This document shows, piece by piece, positions 669 through 24,391 of a DNA stretch of 33,992 nucleotides. The DNA comes from a virus. A program made the position numbers and the translations under genes. The stretch is from positions 1 to 33,992 of the IMG/VR virus record IMGVR_UViG_3300025162_000119; one strand, written 5' to 3'. Numbering within the stretch: position 1 is the stretch's first letter; the number at the start of each line of letters is the position of its first letter. The notes beneath the pieces were generated by a model that saw only the letters and a list, made by a program, of their open reading frames with translations, was not told the origin of the DNA and did not search any database.

Positions 669-1616
669 TCAGGCAGGTTTGACAGGAATGAATATCTGGC
701 GGTTAATACTTTCGTAGGGCATTTTAGCAGGATTTTCATCATACAGTTCAAAGCCGGTGATCTCTGCGATCTGGTACCCCGAAGGATCGAGCCAGCCGTG
801 GCGAAAGGCCACAAGGCTTCTGAAGACACTCATGACTGAGCCTTTATACCAATACGAGGCGTACCTGCCGTCGGGGATTTTCATCAGGCCGATCTCCTTT
901 GGAACCGTGATACCATCTGGTACCGTGAGGCACGCCCTGAACCTGCATCTTTCGAATTCGGTAAAAAAAGGCATATCCAGCAGCACACAGAGATACTGAG
1001 TTTTCATCGTGATCAAATCCCTTGGTTCAGCCCAGCGGTTAAGTACTTTAAAGGCATTCGGGATGGCATCTTCATCCCCGTGATGGGACTCTACGAAAGC
1101 AACATTCAAAGAACGAACCGGTTTAACCCTGACATCCAAAGCTGAAGGAAATCCTGGAGCCTCTTCCCTGGTCAGATTCATGCTCCAAAATTCAGCAGGA
1201 TTGAGGTCAAATGATTTGCCCTTTTTGGGTTTCAATGTGCCAATCTTGCTGATCTCATCCAGTGAAAGTTTCCGAAAGGCTTCAGGAGTGGTCCCATAAA
1301 ACTTCTTAAAAGCCCGTATAAAGGTTGAGGGCGATGAAAAACCACATTGGAAGGAAGCGTCACTGACGCTAAGATAAGGATAAAGCTTCAGGTAATGAGC
1401 AATGCGTTCCAGGCGTAAACGCATGATGTATTGTTTTGGAGATTCCCCGACATAATGAGAGAAGATCTTCTGAAAATGAAATGGTGAAAAGAATGCTATC
1501 CCGGCAAGCCCTTCAAGTGAAAGTTCCTCCGACAGATTCTCCTGGATATATACCAGAACCTTCCGGATTCTTGAAACATTTTCTTTTTCCCGGAAATTGT
1601 CTGTTGGCAGGTGCAT
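669..1616 (-). CDS. AraC-family transcriptional regulator with GyrI-like effector domain
   Basis: A 315-residue protein. Residues ~15-112 form an AraC-type double helix-turn-helix, with the characteristic FSPFHFQKIFSHYVGESP and CGFSSPSTFIRAFKKFYGTTP segments. Residues ~155-312 look like a GyrI-like small-molecule binding domain (a VAFVESHHGDE-like start and a FELYDENP-like end). In this family the N-terminal domain binds DNA and the C-terminal domain senses hydrophobic or drug-like ligands, often controlling export or stress genes. It lies downstream of its neighbours on the minus strand and is most likely a host gene at the prophage edge. The ligand and regulon are unknown. Confidence 0.88.
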   Translation of the reverse strand: MHLPTDNFREKENVSRIRKVLVYIQENLSEELSLEGLAGIAFFSPFHFQKIFSHYVGESPKQYIMRLRLERIAHYLKLYPYLSVSDASFQCGFSSPSTFIRAFKKFYGTTPEAFRKLSLDEISKIGTLKPKKGKSFDLNPAEFWSMNLTREEAPGFPSALDVRVKPVRSLNVAFVESHHGDEDAIPNAFKVLNRWAEPRDLITMKTQYLCVLLDMPFFTEFERCRFRACLTVPDGITVPKEIGLMKIPDGRYASYWYKGSVMSVFRSLVAFRHGWLDPSGYQIAEITGFELYDENPAKMPYESINRQIFIPVKPA

Positions 1617-4220: not shown

Positions 4221-4294
4221 CGCGCAGTAGAGAAGTTGGTCATCTCATGGGTCTCATAATCCCAAGGTCGGCAGTTCGAGTCTGCCCTGCGCTA
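4221..4294 (+). tRNA. tRNA with CAT anticodon (Met or Ile2), initiator-like features
   Basis: A cloverleaf can be drawn by hand. The acceptor arms are 4221-4227 and 4287-4293 with the first pair mismatched (C1, T72). The D stem is GAGA/TCTC, and the anticodon stem is TGGGT/TCCCA with a T-T at the loop end. The loop CTCATAA (4253-4259) carries anticodon CAT at 4255-4257. The variable loop has 5 nt, the T stem GGCAG/CTGCC is perfect, and the T loop is TTCGAGT. CCA is not encoded. The unpaired 1-72 position and A11:U24 are features of bacterial initiator tRNA, but the G:C triplet of the anticodon stem is shifted by one pair. A lysidine-modified Ile2 tRNA cannot be excluded. Confidence 0.85.
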
Positions 4295-4331
4295 CTCAGT
4301 TCGCTCCTTATACAGGGGAAAACCAAATCTT

Positions 4332-8866: not shown

Positions 8867-10441
8867 ATGCATTTAATGAAAAACAGCTATATCACGGTCA
8901 CGGATCAGTTCTGCGGAGCTGGAGGATCTTCCCAGGGAGTTCGTAATATTTCTAAAATGAATGGTGGCGGTGCTGAAGTTAAGCTGGCGCTTAATCATTG
9001 GAAACTTGCTATTGAAACTCATAATACGAACTTCCCTGAAACAATACATGATTGTACGGATATAAGTGCAGCTGATCCACGTCGGTATCCTTCAACGGAT
9101 ATCCTTATAACCTCACCTGAATGCACAAATCATACCCTTGCTAAGGGTTTAAAGAGAGTCAAGTCACAGATTGATCTTTTCTCATCAGGCAAACTTGACC
9201 CGGCTGCGGATAGATCTCGTGCAACAATGTGGGATGTTCCCCGATTCGCTGAGTATCATAATTATAATATAATCATTGTTGAAAATGTTGTGGATGCCAG
9301 GGAATGGTCTCTTTTTCCTGCATGGTTACAGGCCATGCATCTTCTGGGATATAACCATAAGTGCGTATACCTCAATTCCATGTTTTGTCATCCTACACCC
9401 CAAAGCAGGGATAGGATGTATGTTGTTTTCTGGAAAAAAGGTAATCGGGAACCTGATCTTGATTTCCGGCCAGCTGCCCGGTGTCCGAAATGTGAAATTG
9501 ACATAAAGGCTATTCAGCGCTGGAAGCATCCGGATAAGCAATCTGGAAAATTCAGCAAACAGTATATCTATGTTTGTCCCAAATGCGCATGCGATGTGAA
9601 ACCTTATTATTATGCTGCCTTCAATTGTATCGATTGGACTGATATCGGAACCCGGATTGGAGATCGTAAAAAACCTTTGAATGAAAATACAACCAGACGG
9701 ATCGAATATGGATTTAAAAAACATGGTAACCGGCCATTAATGGTAGTCAATTATTCACCCGGTTATTCCAGGCCATTATCCCACCAATTTGGAACTATCA
9801 CAACCGATGATCATCATTCAATAGTGACTCCATTCATAATTAATGATCAGCAAAGTACCGGTGTTGGATTTCGGGTTAACGGAATTGACGAAGTAATACC
9901 AACAGTCAGCACTAATCCTGGATTTAAATTGGTGATGCCATTCGTAATAAAAGAAGAACACTCACAAAATATTGAGATTATCAGACCGGTTTCAGGATCA
10001 CTCCAAACCCAAACCACACGTCAGAGCATGGCCTTAGTAACTCCATTTATGGTTGAAATGAAAAAGACCTCCAATTCCCGTGCTATATCTGATCCATTAT
10101 CTACGATGACTTCCGTCGCTTATCATGGCTTAGTAACTGATGAATCATGGAAATCATTCATCAGTTATTTCTATGGCCAATCACAGTCATCAGGGATTAA
10201 TGATCCATTGGGAACCGTATCCACAAAAGATCGGTTTGCAGTTGTGAATTATCAGGAACCACGGATTGAAGATTGCTATTTCCGGATGTTAAAACCGCAT
10301 GAAATAAAACTGGCCATGGCTTTCAATCAGGAATATGTTGTTTTAGGATCACAAAAAGACCAGGTCAAACAACTTGGTAACGCCGTAACGCCACCGGCTA
10401 TGCAGTGGCTCGTTGAACGAGGAATTGAATCATTACAATAG
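8867..10441 (+). CDS. DNA (cytosine-5) methyltransferase, phage orphan type
   Basis: A 524-residue C5-methyltransferase. Motif I is DQFCGAGGSS (residues 13-22). Motif IV is TSPECTNHTLAKG with catalytic Cys86; the usual PPCQ is replaced by SPEC, as I recall for many phage enzymes. Motif VI is VENVV (residues 138-142), motif VIII QSRDR (179-183) and motif X GNAVTPP near the C-terminus. A four-cysteine zinc ribbon (Cys206, 209, 237, 240) follows motif VIII. The target-recognition region contains about four degenerate repeats of the form 'PhxTxTTxxxHxhVxPF'. No restriction endonuclease neighbours it, so it probably protects phage DNA. An alternative start is 8876. It is more AT-rich than the structural genes. 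Confidence 0.92.
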   Translation: MHLMKNSYITVTDQFCGAGGSSQGVRNISKMNGGGAEVKLALNHWKLAIETHNTNFPETIHDCTDISAADPRRYPSTDILITSPECTNHTLAKGLKRVKSQIDLFSSGKLDPAADRSRATMWDVPRFAEYHNYNIIIVENVVDAREWSLFPAWLQAMHLLGYNHKCVYLNSMFCHPTPQSRDRMYVVFWKKGNREPDLDFRPAARCPKCEIDIKAIQRWKHPDKQSGKFSKQYIYVCPKCACDVKPYYYAAFNCIDWTDIGTRIGDRKKPLNENTTRRIEYGFKKHGNRPLMVVNYSPGYSRPLSHQFGTITTDDHHSIVTPFIINDQQSTGVGFRVNGIDEVIPTVSTNPGFKLVMPFVIKEEHSQNIEIIRPVSGSLQTQTTRQSMALVTPFMVEMKKTSNSRAISDPLSTMTSVAYHGLVTDESWKSFISYFYGQSQSSGINDPLGTVSTKDRFAVVNYQEPRIEDCYFRMLKPHEIKLAMAFNQEYVVLGSQKDQVKQLGNAVTPPAMQWLVERGIESLQ

Positions 10442-10463: not shown

Positions 10464-10943
10464 ATGAACAATCACTTAAAAGCAAAGATGATGGTGGATC
10501 AGCTTCCGCCATTAACAGGTAAATCATTCAAGAATGGTTTTTACCAGGGAGTCATTATGGCTCTCAACGAAGAAAATAAACAAAAACCTAAGTTTGACTG
10601 GAAGTCAATCAACACCCTGGAGGATGCACTGGCTTATACAGGAAAGAGGCCGGAAGATGTTTACAATGTTTCGGACCCGGTGCGTCGTCAAGCTCTCGAT
10701 ATCCTTGAATTTGTCATTGAATTAATCGGAGAAGGATTCGTCGCTGATTATACAAACCCTGATCAGAAGAAATGGGTTCCATTGTTTAATCTTTCGTCCG
10801 GGTTCGTTTTTTCGTACTCGCTTTACAGCTATTCGGACGCGGGTGCGGGGTGCGGTTCTCGCCTTTGCTCAGAAAACGAAGAAAAGAGTAATCATATCGG
10901 AATAAAATTCCAGTCTTACTGGATGGATTTAATTACCAAATAA
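10464..10943 (+). CDS. DGR target protein 1 (variable protein)
   Basis: 159 residues from the ATG at 10464; the frame is open further upstream but only with a TTG inside the methyltransferase gene. The N-terminal part (FDWKSINTLEDALAYTGKRP region) is shared with the next gene. Residues ~108-136 are the variable segment: KWVPLFNLSSGFVFS, six diversified positions, then CGSRLC. The C-terminus ends in a short helix (IGIKFQSYWMDLI). The protein is too short for a complete C-type lectin. From memory it resembles small proteins of gut Bacteroidales phages that end in a GSRLC-type motif. It overlaps the following gene in a TAATG junction. Function is presumably binding of a changing ligand. Confidence 0.78.
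   Translation: MNNHLKAKMMVDQLPPLTGKSFKNGFYQGVIMALNEENKQKPKFDWKSINTLEDALAYTGKRPEDVYNVSDPVRRQALDILEFVIELIGEGFVADYTNPDQKKWVPLFNLSSGFVFSYSLYSYSDAGAGCGSRLCSENEEKSNHIGIKFQSYWMDLITK
10791..10868 (+). other. DGR variable repeat 1 (VR1)
   Basis: Aligned by eye with the template repeat at 11372-11450. In the 36-nt core (10815-10850 against 11397-11432), 10 of 15 template adenines are changed. The codon changes include AAC to TAC, AAT to CTT, AAC to AGC, AAC to GAC and AAT to GGT. Only one of 21 non-adenine positions differs: a T to G makes the last codon GGG. Flanks match closely: 24 bases before with one A to G, and 10 identical bases after. Confidence 0.9.
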
Positions 10944-11335
10944 TGATCATTATGAAAACTGAAAAAAAAGAAAAAACAAAAGATGCATTCGACTTCAGAT
11001 CAGTTGAATCATTTGAAAAAGAACTTGCAAAACAAGGCAAGAAAGCAGAGGATGTCTATCATCCTTCAGACGCTCCGCACATTGTCGCTCAAAAGAAAAT
11101 TGAGTTCCTCTATGACGTGATGAGAAATGGAGTGATCATGGATCATGCTAACCCCAACCAGAGGAAATGGCTCCCGGTATTTAATCTTTCGTCCGGGTTC
11201 GTTTTTTCGAGCTCGGATTACCTCTATTCGTTCACGTGTGCGTATTGCGGTTCTCGCCTTTGCCTTTTTGAAGAGGAAATGTCGGACTATGGCGCAAATC
11301 AATTTATCGATTTGTGGGAAACGCTGATCAGATAA
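10943..11335 (+). CDS. DGR target protein 2 (variable protein)
   Basis: 130 residues, paralogous to the preceding gene along its whole length (FDFRSVESFEKELAKQGKKA and EDVYHPSD against FDWKSINTLEDALAYTGKRP and EDVYNVSD). It starts in the TAATG overlap at 10943; ATG 10952 is an alternative. The variable segment is again framed by KWLPVFNLSSGFVFS and CGSRLC and followed by a YGANQFIDLWETLI helix. Identity between the two genes is only moderate outside the VR but nearly complete at the non-adenine VR positions. This suggests that VRs are homogenised by retrohoming from the shared template. No signal peptide or membrane segment is seen. Confidence 0.8.
   Translation: MIIMKTEKKEKTKDAFDFRSVESFEKELAKQGKKAEDVYHPSDAPHIVAQKKIEFLYDVMRNGVIMDHANPNQRKWLPVFNLSSGFVFSSSDYLYSFTCAYCGSRLCLFEEEMSDYGANQFIDLWETLIR
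11186..11263 (+). other. DGR variable repeat 2 (VR2)
   Basis: Against the template, 9 of 15 adenines in the 36-nt core (11210-11245) are substituted and none of the 21 other positions. Changes include AAC to AGC, AAT to GAT, AAC to CTC, AAC to TTC, AAT to TGT and AAT to TAT; the ACG, TAC and TAT codons are unchanged. The same fixed flank differences from TR occur as in VR1: A to G at template 11382 and 11443, and GA to TT at 11446-11447. These probably mark the limits of transferred sequence. Confidence 0.92.
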
Positions 11336-11371
11336 ATTAAACCGAAGGTTGTATGCTGCATGGCCGTCAGT

Positions 11372-11450
11372 TCTTTCGTCCAGGTTCGTTTTTTCGAACT
11401 CGAATTACAACTATTCGAACACGAATGCGAATTGCGGTTCTCACCGATGC
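11372..11450 (+). other. DGR template repeat (TR), non-coding
   Basis: It lies in the 193-nt gap between target gene 2 and the reverse transcriptase. If read in the VR frame, the core 11397-11432 has six AAC/AAT codons plus TAC, TAT and ACG. This is the usual DGR design: adenine changes in AAY codons give many amino acids and can never create a stop. Fifteen adenines are exposed. The 3' flank TGCGGTTCTC (11433-11442) is identical in both VRs and is the likely initiation-of-mutagenic-homing segment. The RNA made from this region would be the cDNA template. Confidence 0.9.
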
Positions 11451-11528
11451 GATAAACCGCGGCATAAACCCTGCCAACAGTTGCAAAAAATGACATTTTA
11501 AAATGGATCATTGGTACCGAAAGAGAAA

Positions 11529-12503
11529 ATGATCTTTGATAAGCAAAGCATGAAAAGGATAGGTAATTTATACACACAGATCTGCAGTATTGAAAACTTA
11601 CGACTGGCCGATTCAATTGCCCGAAAAGGCAAGGCAAAGCAGCCCGGAATCATCGCACATGACAAAGAAAGAGAGGATAACATTGAACGACTTCATAAAT
11701 CACTCATGAATAAAACGTACCGGACCTCTGAGTATACCACCTTTACGATCCATGAGCCAAAGGAACGACTGATATTTCGTCTGCCGTATTATCCTGACAG
11801 AATCACTCATCATGCCGTGATGAACGTCCTGGAGCCATTGTTCGTTTCCACCTTCACCGCAGATACATACAGTTGCATAAAGGGACGCGGGATCCATGGA
11901 GCAGTCCGGGCGGTTAAAATGGCACTCCGGGATAAACAGGGCACTGCATACTGCCTTAAACTTGATGTGCGTAAGTTCTACCCGAACGTGGATCATAATG
12001 TGTTAAAAGAACTCCTGCGCAGAAAAATAAAGGATCAGGATCTGCTCTGGCTTCTTGATGAGATTATCGATTCCACCGACGGCCTGCCGATCGGCAACTA
12101 TCTCAGCCAGTATTTCGCAAATTTCTACCTCACTTATTTTGATCACTGGCTCAAGGAGCAAATGAACGTGAAGTATTACTTCAGGTATGCCGATGACATG
12201 GTAATCCTCGCTGCCGGCAAACCGGAGCTTCATCAGCTTATGAGTGAAATAAGGAATTATCTCGAGACAAATTTAAAATTGTGTGTAAAGGATAACTACC
12301 AGGTATTCCCGGTGGATGCCCGTGGGATTGACTTCGTTGGTTATGTTTTCTTTCATTCTCATACACTCCTTCGTAAAAGCATCAAACAAAACTTTGCCCG
12401 CATGATAGCACGTCGCCGGAATCCGGCTTCCATCGCATCATATAACGGCTGGGCAAAACACGCGAACTGTAAAAATCTACTTAAAAAACTACTCGATGAA
12501 TAG
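11529..12503 (+). CDS. DGR reverse transcriptase
   Basis: 324 residues from the ATG at 11529; an in-frame TTG at 11511 and an ATG at 11550 are alternatives. Palm motifs are LKLDVRKFYPN (catalytic Asp146) and FRYADDMVIL (YADD at 220-223). Motif 4 is GLPIGNYLSQYFANFYL, where the SQ pair separates DGR and related enzymes from group II intron enzymes, which have PQG and SP. There is no maturase or endonuclease domain, and the length fits the DGR family. It copies TR RNA into cDNA while misincorporating opposite adenines. The TR and two VRs directly upstream make the DGR assignment firm. Confidence 0.93.
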   Translation: MIFDKQSMKRIGNLYTQICSIENLRLADSIARKGKAKQPGIIAHDKEREDNIERLHKSLMNKTYRTSEYTTFTIHEPKERLIFRLPYYPDRITHHAVMNVLEPLFVSTFTADTYSCIKGRGIHGAVRAVKMALRDKQGTAYCLKLDVRKFYPNVDHNVLKELLRRKIKDQDLLWLLDEIIDSTDGLPIGNYLSQYFANFYLTYFDHWLKEQMNVKYYFRYADDMVILAAGKPELHQLMSEIRNYLETNLKLCVKDNYQVFPVDARGIDFVGYVFFHSHTLLRKSIKQNFARMIARRRNPASIASYNGWAKHANCKNLLKKLLDE

Positions 12504-12561
12504 ATTCGGCGAATTCAATATTAAAGTCAAACGGAAGGTTTTTGTTGGAGGAAAGATCAAT

Positions 12562-12801
12562 ATGGCGAAGATACTGGGTAAGGAGATTATTATTCTTGAC
12601 TTCAAAATAGAAGAATCAAAGTGTTTCAAACAGAAGGGATCCGGAATGTGTCTTTGCCTTCAAATCTCAATTGAAAGTGAAAAACATATCGTTTTCACCT
12701 CGTCAAGTTATCTCATCGAGATGATCGAGCAGGTCCCGTCAGCAAGTTTTCCGTTTGCCACCATTATCGTTGAAGAAAATAAAGGATTCAAATTCACTTG
12801 A
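12562..12801 (+). CDS. Uncharacterised small protein downstream of the RT
   Basis: 79 residues from the ATG at 12562, which has a strong GGAGGA site 9 bases upstream. A longer frame starts at 12496 and overlaps the RT by 8 bases, but its extra 22 residues are basic and unsupported. The protein alternates beta strands: ILGKEIIILDFKIEES, CLCLQISIE, then HIVFTSSSYLIEMIEQVP and FPFATIIVEEN. I recall comparable small conserved proteins in Bacteroidales phages but cannot name the family. It may be co-transcribed with the DGR. Confidence 0.6.
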   Translation: MAKILGKEIIILDFKIEESKCFKQKGSGMCLCLQISIESEKHIVFTSSSYLIEMIEQVPSASFPFATIIVEENKGFKFT

Positions 12802-14581: not shown

Positions 14582-15460
14582 ATGTTGGATCGAATTTTTA
14601 AACTCCTCTCTTCAGACTGGTTAATCCATCAGGATACAGCGATATCTTATTTACCGGTATTGATATCCTTTCTCAATGGACAGAAGTTGGATGTTGTGGC
14701 CGGCTCCCTAAAACCACCTCAGCGAATTTCCGGGTTCCGCAGTGATGCAGATCCTGAATGGGTTGATCAGGATAACCTTTCCGACATATCAATTCCTGAA
14801 AACTCAATTGCCGTCATCCCGATCCAGGATACTATCCTATCATGGAAAACTCAAAGAATGGTAGGCCAGATCAAGCAGGCCGATGCTAACCCGCAGATCT
14901 GCGCCATTCTGTTTTTGGTATCATCTCCCGGGGGCATGGTTTCTCAGCTTGATATTGCGGCTTCTGCCATTAAGAATTGTAGCAAACCAACAGTGGTTGT
15001 TATTTCACAGATGGCTGCATCAGCCGCAATGTGGCTTTCTTCCGCAGCAAATTATCGGATCGCCACCTCCCCTATTGATGCGATAGGATCCATCGGTACA
15101 AAGACCTCCTTCATGGATATCAATGGCTTCTTGAAAGAGAAGCTGAATATCTCCGTGTATGAGATCTATGCAACATTATCGACCAAGAAGGAAGAGGAGA
15201 TCCGTGAGCTTCTTAAGGGCAACGACAAACCCATTGTTGCGAAACTCGACTTCATCAATGCAATTTTTCACAAAACCATTCAGGATAACCTGGGAATTCC
15301 TGAAGGATCTGAAGTCTTTACCGGTGCGATCTATTTTGCTGAACAGGCCAAGAGCCTTGGGCTGATCAATGAGATCAACACCATTGATTATGCGGTCAAT
15401 TTCACTTATGAGCTCGGACTAGCTAATAAAATCAAGTCAAACCCAATATTTAACAACTAA
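14582..15460 (+). CDS. S49/SppA-type prohead protease
   Basis: 292 residues with the S49 serine-peptidase core: ICAILFLVSSPGGMV (the SPGG turn), then VVVISQMAASAAMWLSSAAN with the nucleophile serine in the ASAAMW turn, then IDAIGSIGTKTSF. The C-terminal EVFTGAIYFAEQAKSLGLIN closes the fold as in SppA and ClpP-like phage proteases. Such enzymes mature the prohead by cutting scaffold and capsid N-terminus. That matches its place immediately before a capsid gene carrying an N-terminal scaffold-like segment. The start follows the 13-bp inverted repeat directly. Confidence 0.85.
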   Translation: MLDRIFKLLSSDWLIHQDTAISYLPVLISFLNGQKLDVVAGSLKPPQRISGFRSDADPEWVDQDNLSDISIPENSIAVIPIQDTILSWKTQRMVGQIKQADANPQICAILFLVSSPGGMVSQLDIAASAIKNCSKPTVVVISQMAASAAMWLSSAANYRIATSPIDAIGSIGTKTSFMDINGFLKEKLNISVYEIYATLSTKKEEEIRELLKGNDKPIVAKLDFINAIFHKTIQDNLGIPEGSEVFTGAIYFAEQAKSLGLINEINTIDYAVNFTYELGLANKIKSNPIFNN

Positions 15461-23689: not shown

Positions 23690-24391
23690 ATGAAAACTAC
23701 TTATTCGAACACCATCCCGATGAGATCCTGGTCAGAAGATGATCTCCCATCTGAAAAATTACTACTCAAGGGCAAAGCAAGCCTTTCAGATGCTGAGCTC
23801 CTGAGCCTGATCATAGGGTCCGGAATCCAGGGGAATAACTCACTTGATATCGCTAAAAAGGTACTGGCATCATCGGCAAATAACCTATCTGATCTCTGGC
23901 GTCGCTCCTTCACAGACCTGCGGCAGATAGAAGGCATTGGCAAAGGGAAGGCTGTTCAGATCCTTGCCATGATGGAGCTGGGGCGCAGACGCTCTGAAAG
24001 TGAGGTATTCGCCAAGGCAAAGATTTCAACATCCAGGGATGCCTACGATATTCTTCATGCAGTACTGGGGGATCTACCATATGAAGAATTCTGGATGCTG
24101 ATCCTTAACAAGGCAAACAAAGTGATCCGCAAAATAAAGATATCTGAAGGCGGTATCTCCGGAACGGTCGTAGATCCAAAGAAGATCTTTAAGATATCAC
24201 TCGATTTTCACGCCTCCAGTATTATTCTCGGGCACAATCATCCAAGCGGAAACCTTCAGCCCAGTGAAGCGGATATCAAGATCACGAAAAAGCTCAAGGA
24301 TTCGGGAATTCTTCTCGACATATCAGTACTGGATCATCTGATCATCGGAGATGACCGATACTATTCATTTGCAGATGAAGGGGCGATTTAA
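23690..24391 (+). CDS. radC: RadC-family JAB/MPN domain protein
   Basis: A full-length 233-residue RadC. The N-terminal helix-hairpin-helix part is LPSEKLLLKGKASLSDAELL and IEGIGKGKAVQILAMMELGR. The C-terminal JAB domain has the metal motif GHNHPSGNLQPSEAD (His182, His184, Asp195). Despite the name, a direct role in recombination repair is not established for the family; phage and mobile-element copies are thought to help DNA transactions or counter defence. It has its own leader and terminator inside the terminase-portal island, which suggests gene-by-gene control or acquisition. Confidence 0.92.
   Translation: MKTTYSNTIPMRSWSEDDLPSEKLLLKGKASLSDAELLSLIIGSGIQGNNSLDIAKKVLASSANNLSDLWRRSFTDLRQIEGIGKGKAVQILAMMELGRRRSESEVFAKAKISTSRDAYDILHAVLGDLPYEEFWMLILNKANKVIRKIKISEGGISGTVVDPKKIFKISLDFHASSIILGHNHPSGNLQPSEADIKITKKLKDSGILLDISVLDHLIIGDDRYYSFADEGAI

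Follow-up and report, generated by a model that had tools for sequence, protein, structure and literature searches.

Is a compact group of repeats and small genes in a virus record (IMG/VR record IMGVR_UViG_3300025162_000119, all 33,992 bases of which are called the window here) a working diversity-generating retroelement (DGR), and if so, what kind of protein would it diversify? Phage DGRs have been described mainly as tail diversifiers that act on C-type lectin domains: most of their known targets belong to the tail or serve attachment, and the VR regions described otherwise are C-type lectins (PMC8144416). More than 31,000 DGRs have been catalogued from metagenomes (PMC8144416), and loci of the present type are probably already included in such large catalogues. 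In the mainly open-access literature, we found no description of the target family phrog_11581, of its pairing, or of the accessory gene and RNA element considered below.

The cassette in the window

The cassette, which lies entirely on the plus strand, begins with two target genes, T1 (10464–10943; 159 amino acids) and T2 (10943–11335; 130 amino acids from the ATG at 10943, or 127 from that at 10952), the T2 start overlapping the T1 stop. VR1 (10790–10863, variable core 10815–10850) lies inside T1, about 30 residues of which follow it, and VR2 (11185–11258, variable core 11210–11245) lies inside T2; the template, TR (11372–11445, core 11397–11432), comes next and has an IMH*-like 3′ end. On recount, the VR1 core departs from the TR core at 10 of 15 adenines and 1 of 21 other bases, and the VR2 core at 9 of 15 and 0 of 21. 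The initial annotation had given exactly these figures, and it was also correct in counting six AAC/AAT codons in the TR core and no adenine codon able to become a stop. Homology between TR and the VRs is detectable over ~74 bases, well past the 36-base cores. Over 66 bases, the match at non-A positions of TR is 0.98–1.00 for VR1 and VR2 and only 0.56 for the next best site in the window, which excludes a chance origin of the repeats; a scan of both strands of the window revealed no third copy. That this cassette is a DGR is beyond reasonable doubt.

The reverse transcriptase (RT) gene (11550–12503) encodes 317 amino acids from a conserved ATG, which family alignment favors over the mechanically assigned TTG at 11511. 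Its product matches RVT_1 (E = 2.9e-18) and phrog_1423 (E = 3e-126), and direct reading locates an SQ-type GLPIGNYLSQ motif and YADD; the SQ-type, YADD-bearing RT that had been reported to follow the repeats is genuine. In pairwise similarity, it is nearer to the DGR RTs of crAss-like phages, with identity of up to 58%, than to the Bordetella phage type. Assignment to the defense RTs (DRT/UG) was considered and rejected: the top PADLOC model is a general RT, the DRT models score lower, and a TR/VR system is present. Several related RTs have peculiarities of their own. Those of the crAss-like cr115_1 and cr52_1 (loci L085 and L086) have TAG codons within the reading frame, as would be expected if TAG is recoded; the phage contig of L035 holds a second, distant RT (G006:C1:3760-4659; 29% identity); and the RT of phage BI-TP1 (L219, 4716–6268) is apparently split over two ORFs through a frameshift, decay or a sequencing error.

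The initial annotation, sound on the repeats and the RT, overlooked two further components. One is D1 (12496–12801; 101 amino acids), a candidate DGR accessory gene that overlaps the RT stop. Its relatives, ~99 amino acids long, form phrog_19665, which is matched by 62 of 62 members, and D1 is present in 165 of the 172 loci with RT, target and enough sequence; no separate D1 was found near solitary targets. In Bacteroides phage BT-TP2, the D1 domain makes up the C terminus of the RT (E = 1.8e-10; phrog_19665, E = 7.8e-7), and in BI-TP1 the second RT ORF carries both the RT C-terminal match and a D1 match (E = 2.9e-6). Beside the RTs of cr52_1 and cr115_1, D1 was not found, and sequence searches of PDB and Pfam gave no match to it. 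We tried and rejected Avd as a component of the cassette: BPP-1 Avd, the positive control, matches bAvd (PF22296), the cassette proteins do not, and no alignment of D1 with Avd was obtained. Judged by its distribution and its junctions with the RT, D1 is probably a new RT accessory protein and not Avd.

The other overlooked component is an RNA stem in the TR-RT spacer (11459–11535), which is conserved and covaries in an alignment of 34 relatives. Its pairing comprises a main helix (11505–11511/11529–11535), an inner helix (11517–11518/11523–11524) and an upstream helix (11459–11462/11471–11474). Across the 34 sequences, 94.6% of helix cells are paired; shuffling gives 83.7%, and sliding the helices along the alignment gives no more than 38.2%. 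Compensatory changes occupy 57 cells, where shuffling yields 17.2. We infer that this stem is part of the template RNA; alternatively, it could act on RT translation. An Rfam search of the window matched only a tRNA, and a scan for promoters and terminators gave counts close to those in shuffled sequence.

The limits of the mutable segment emerge from 255 TR/VR pairs aligned on the GSRL motif, which place the mutable core at ~40 bases. Flanking this core on either side, TR adenines at positions −55, −48, 0 and +7 are changed in 99–100% of these pairs, almost always to G; they represent fixed marks of the IMH*/IMH type, not random mutations. In the window, A11443 of TR, just outside the core, is G in both VR1 and VR2, and some of the TR-A/VR-G differences flanking the core are of the fixed type, being present in 100% of relatives. 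The VR does not reach the C-terminal end of the target; because ~30 conserved residues come after it, the IMH falls within coding sequence.

Activity in related cassettes

A scan with the RT recovered 80 viral loci at 65–100% identity, and a scan with the target alignment recovered 53 loci in bacterial genomes in addition to 80 viral ones. The bacterial loci are nearly all from Bacteroidota, with some from Ignavibacteria, and place the cassette in prophages of cultured Flavobacterium, Elizabethkingia, Chryseobacterium, Muricauda and Apibacter. Among 146 de-duplicated RT loci, exactly two VRs are found in 112 and three or four in 12, and the nearest TR-VR spacing has a median of 189 bases. Within these 146 loci, 3487 of 5106 TR-A positions (68%) are changed, as against 39 of 9854 other positions (0.4%); the search accepted no pair with more than three non-A mismatches, which puts a ceiling on the latter count, yet the contrast far exceeds what this ceiling could produce. 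Adenines are most frequently replaced by G, then by T, then by C, and only 35 of 5,100 TR codons in the relatives are stop-capable. At one locus (L083, on a 362-kb contig), genes of the target family flank the RT on both sides and no D1 is detectable.

Comparison with relatives, the check proposed in the initial annotation, bears out its expectation, in that close pairs differ mostly at TR-adenine sites while TR is unchanged. Between L027 and L032, 6,861 bases hold 13 differences, and 12 of these fall on TR-A sites of the T2 VR, whereas the 13 differences between L027 and L029 (5,997 bases) all lie within the T1 VR, 10 at TR-A sites. Nine of the 12 differences that separate L026 from L029 (4,705 bases) are TR-A sites of a middle VR. 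In two more pairs it is VR1 that has changed, at 9 TR-A sites between L023 and L024 (with 11 further differences near the alignment end) and at 11 between L076 and L077 (with 14 differences elsewhere). TR is identical within each of the five pairs. We therefore conclude that each VR of this cassette type is rewritten independently.

These observations bear on two accounts in which the window would hold no working DGR. Random divergence after an ordinary duplication or gene conversion would explain why T1 and T2 are paralogous and have the sequence around the VR in common, but the differences fall almost exclusively on TR adenines, in the window as in the 146 loci; this base specificity refutes such an account and leaves it a negligible probability. 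The cassette could instead have decayed, leaving the VRs as relics of past activity in the window's phage: the sole contig nearly identical to the window, that of locus L004 (IMG/VR contig 3300009175_000062), matches it without a difference over 8,751 bases, both VRs included. The window and L004 may, however, come from one population or sample. In addition, the RT is intact with its catalytic YADD, T1, T2 and D1 are open, the IMH and RNA elements are retained, and VR1 has acquired a single non-A change and VR2 none, all of which makes decay very improbable. The cassette was correctly read as a seemingly complete DGR in which one template serves two targets, and related cassettes are active on every VR; the accompanying claim that both proteins are actively diversified holds for each VR in relatives and may hold in the window's own population, although the VRs of L004 are identical.

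Target proteins and their genomic setting

T1 and T2 are paralogues of the phrog_11581 family, which has no assigned function and is matched by 77 of 78 members; T2 matches it with E = 1.7e-11 and T1, in which an N-terminal extension precedes the domain, with E = 8.2e-10. A Pfam search with the 78 members gave no consistent match and recognized no C-type lectin, and no similarity of T1 or T2 to Mtd was found. AlphaFold models of two targets (pLDDT 82 for T2 and 84.5 for the other; pTM 0.73 and 0.80) are both helical with one hairpin, which corresponds to the VR and is modeled with low confidence (about 47–60). Foldseek comparison of the two models with PDB produced nothing credible (best E values, 1.6 and 4.0), and the matches among viral models are uncharacterized phage proteins only. 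At AAY codons, the VR residues include Tyr (15%), Asp (14%), Gly (13%) and very little Pro (0.4%), a make-up that suits a binding loop but is in part a product of the A-to-G bias.

In a quick tree, T1 and T2 lineages separate by position, with 21 and 17 label changes against ~52 in shuffles, and the window's T1 is orthologous by position to that of relatives; the window's own T1 and T2 cluster together in this tree, apart from other T1s and T2s, on long branches. Fusion of T1 and T2 into one polypeptide was seen twice (L130, 7488–8348; L224, 15323–16300). Together, the separate lineages and the fusions suggest that T1 and T2 form a functional pair, possibly a heteromer. On the contig of L224, the fused gene lies ~40 kb from the RT and contains two VRs of the same TR.

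The families most often found within three genes of the cassette are primase, HNH endonuclease, terminase subunits, MBL-type hydrolase, RecT, exonuclease, C5 methyltransferase and helicase, and no tail family occurs among the 25 commonest neighbor families on either side. These lists, which comprise the commonest families only, are suggestive of a DNA-handling rather than a tail neighborhood. The immediate upstream neighbor of T1 in the window (8867–10441) encodes a C5 cytosine DNA methyltransferase, and a head maturation protease is encoded downstream of the cassette, at 14582. Methyltransferase genes lie near phrog_11581 targets in other phages too, a suggestive proximity. In 11 near-complete contigs (47–72 kb), TR matches T1/T2-type genes only, and a scan of these contigs for an overlooked tail VR found none; the set excludes L077, which lacks an extracted TR. 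One of the 11, that of L014, carries two further VRs in a fused T1-T2 gene at a distance. Four genomes of cultured strains contain just two family members each, both within the cassette.

In certain Bacteroides and crAss-like phages, members of the family are distal targets of a DGR that also serves a gene beside the RT. Phage Versailles keeps RT and TR together at about 53.8 kb, with a first VR in the adjacent tail gene; the second VR, which has 0 non-A mismatches to TR over 45 bases, is in a 193-amino-acid family member at 10.6 kb that sits between recombination and replication genes. Similarity between the Versailles tail target and this family member is limited to a 38-residue VR segment, and nothing aligns outside the VR. 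In BI-TP1 (LoVEphage type), a single TR likewise serves a tail gene by the RT and a family gene that lies about 56 kb away and has a methyltransferase gene nearby; in cr52_1, one TR serves a tail gene beside the RT and a T1/T2 relative at a distance of about 57 kb. In BT-TP2, one TR has two targets across the record ends, and the RT-side gene encodes a large hypothetical protein; the RT-side gene is a tail gene in three of the four phages with a distal family target.

In four gut temperate phage species, a second VR has been described far from the RT, near a DNA methyltransferase and other counter-defense genes (PMC12629997), and the layout given in the relevant passage of that paper is the one seen here in BI-TP1, Versailles and cr52_1. 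That passage names no family for the distal gene, whereas here the family is named and occurs as a tandem pair that, in many other phages, is the sole target found; this supplies a family and a name for the second, distant targets reported from gut phages in 2025. When the window's T2 was used as a query against named phages, no match was obtained; a more typical family member did match. Gut Bacteroidales genomes also contain solitary, longer family genes with no RT within 8 kb (L131–L144). The cases of Versailles and BI-TP1 suggest that a DGR in another part of the prophage may diversify these genes from a distance. One of them, L136, is a Bacteroidales-type member on a contig titled uncultured Ruminococcus, possibly mis-binned.

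Proposed mechanism and possible functions

Drawing on the repeats and their adenine-specific change, the RT, the activity in relatives, the D1 association, the covarying RNA and the gene context, we posit that retrohoming in the window's phage would proceed as follows. The RT would copy the TR RNA, probably together with its structured 3′ spacer, and place random bases opposite adenines; the cDNA would replace VR1 in T1 or VR2 in T2, within limits set by the fixed IMH/IMH* differences. D1 probably helps the RT in Avd's stead. T1 and T2 would be small co-evolving sister proteins with one randomized loop each, and the repertoire would stem from about 15 randomized bases per VR. As a whole, a Bacteroidota-type phage DGR that rewrites VR1 and VR2 with the aid of D1, its products acting as paired loop proteins, is very probably the best explanation of the cassette.

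The cassette shares with the mtd/avd/TR/brt system of BPP-1 the adenine-specific transfer from TR to VR, an SQ-type RT and the IMH/IMH* logic, and the label "Bordetella phage type" that it had been given is apt for the mutation chemistry. In other respects it departs from that type: it has no Avd and a different accessory candidate, its small tandem targets lack both similarity to Mtd and a recognized lectin fold, its VRs are internal, and it sits outside the tail module, with no adjoining tail genes. The crAss-like DGRs (crAssphage LMMB, cr52_1 and cr115_1), already noted for their RTs, share the order target-VR-TR-RT and, like the window cassette, have no avd (PMC7290462); they differ in adjoining a tail gene and in having the VR at the gene end, and the RTs of cr52_1 and cr115_1 come without D1. 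Two targets are found in about 13% of DGRs (two-target DGRs include those of the tentaclins nd4 and nd12, PMC10743442, and of Bacuni phages, PMC8143477). There, too, one TR serves two target genes, but the tentaclin and Bacuni targets are larger C-type lectin adhesins, whereas those of the window are small paralogues with no recognized lectin domain.

What would T1 and T2 do? Our leading guess, tentatively held, is that they bind variable host factors inside the cell in the service of counter-defense or host takeover. They may also be virion proteins, such as small receptor-binding or decoration subunits, and mediate classical tropism switching on an unusual scaffold. Such a role would agree with the tail or attachment targets that predominate among known phage DGRs (PMC8144416), with the annotated tail genes that the TRs of Versailles, BI-TP1 and cr52_1 also serve, and with the head genes that come after the cassette in the window; yet the commonest neighbors include no tail family, the Versailles and BI-TP1 members sit among recombination, replication or methyltransferase genes, and a tail target fails to align with a family member beyond the VR, so we rate it as possible but somewhat doubtful. 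A function of neither kind seems unlikely. The scaffold, in turn, would not be new if the target domain were a C-type lectin that has diverged or been strongly reduced, lectins being the fold otherwise described for VR regions (PMC8144416). The VR of the family is interchangeable with that of a tail target, VR ends are similar (GSRL, GFRL), and the models place a hairpin there, albeit at low confidence; the same two models are helical and have no credible PDB counterpart, and the 78 family members lack a consistent Pfam match. The low confidence at the VR keeps these observations from being decisive, but descent from a lectin appears rather unlikely to us.

If T1 and T2 do act inside the cell, the window might exemplify a class of phage DGRs in which an RT with the accessory D1 diversifies paired small non-lectin binders as a repertoire for counter-defense or host takeover, a generalization that we regard as doubtful in its full form. 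The cassette type itself, found at well over a hundred Bacteroidota-phage loci, points away from tails and toward small sister targets among DNA-handling genes, and the question of whether phages randomize intracellular proteins becomes directly testable. Elsewhere in the window, an AraC-like regulator is encoded at the left end (669–1616, minus strand), possibly in host DNA at a prophage border, and is followed by a repressor-like HTH gene (1862–2290). A tRNA-Met gene (4221–4295) lies immediately ahead of the primase gene, and a RadC-like gene (23690–24391; PF04002, E = 1.3e-42) stands in an ORF-poor stretch.
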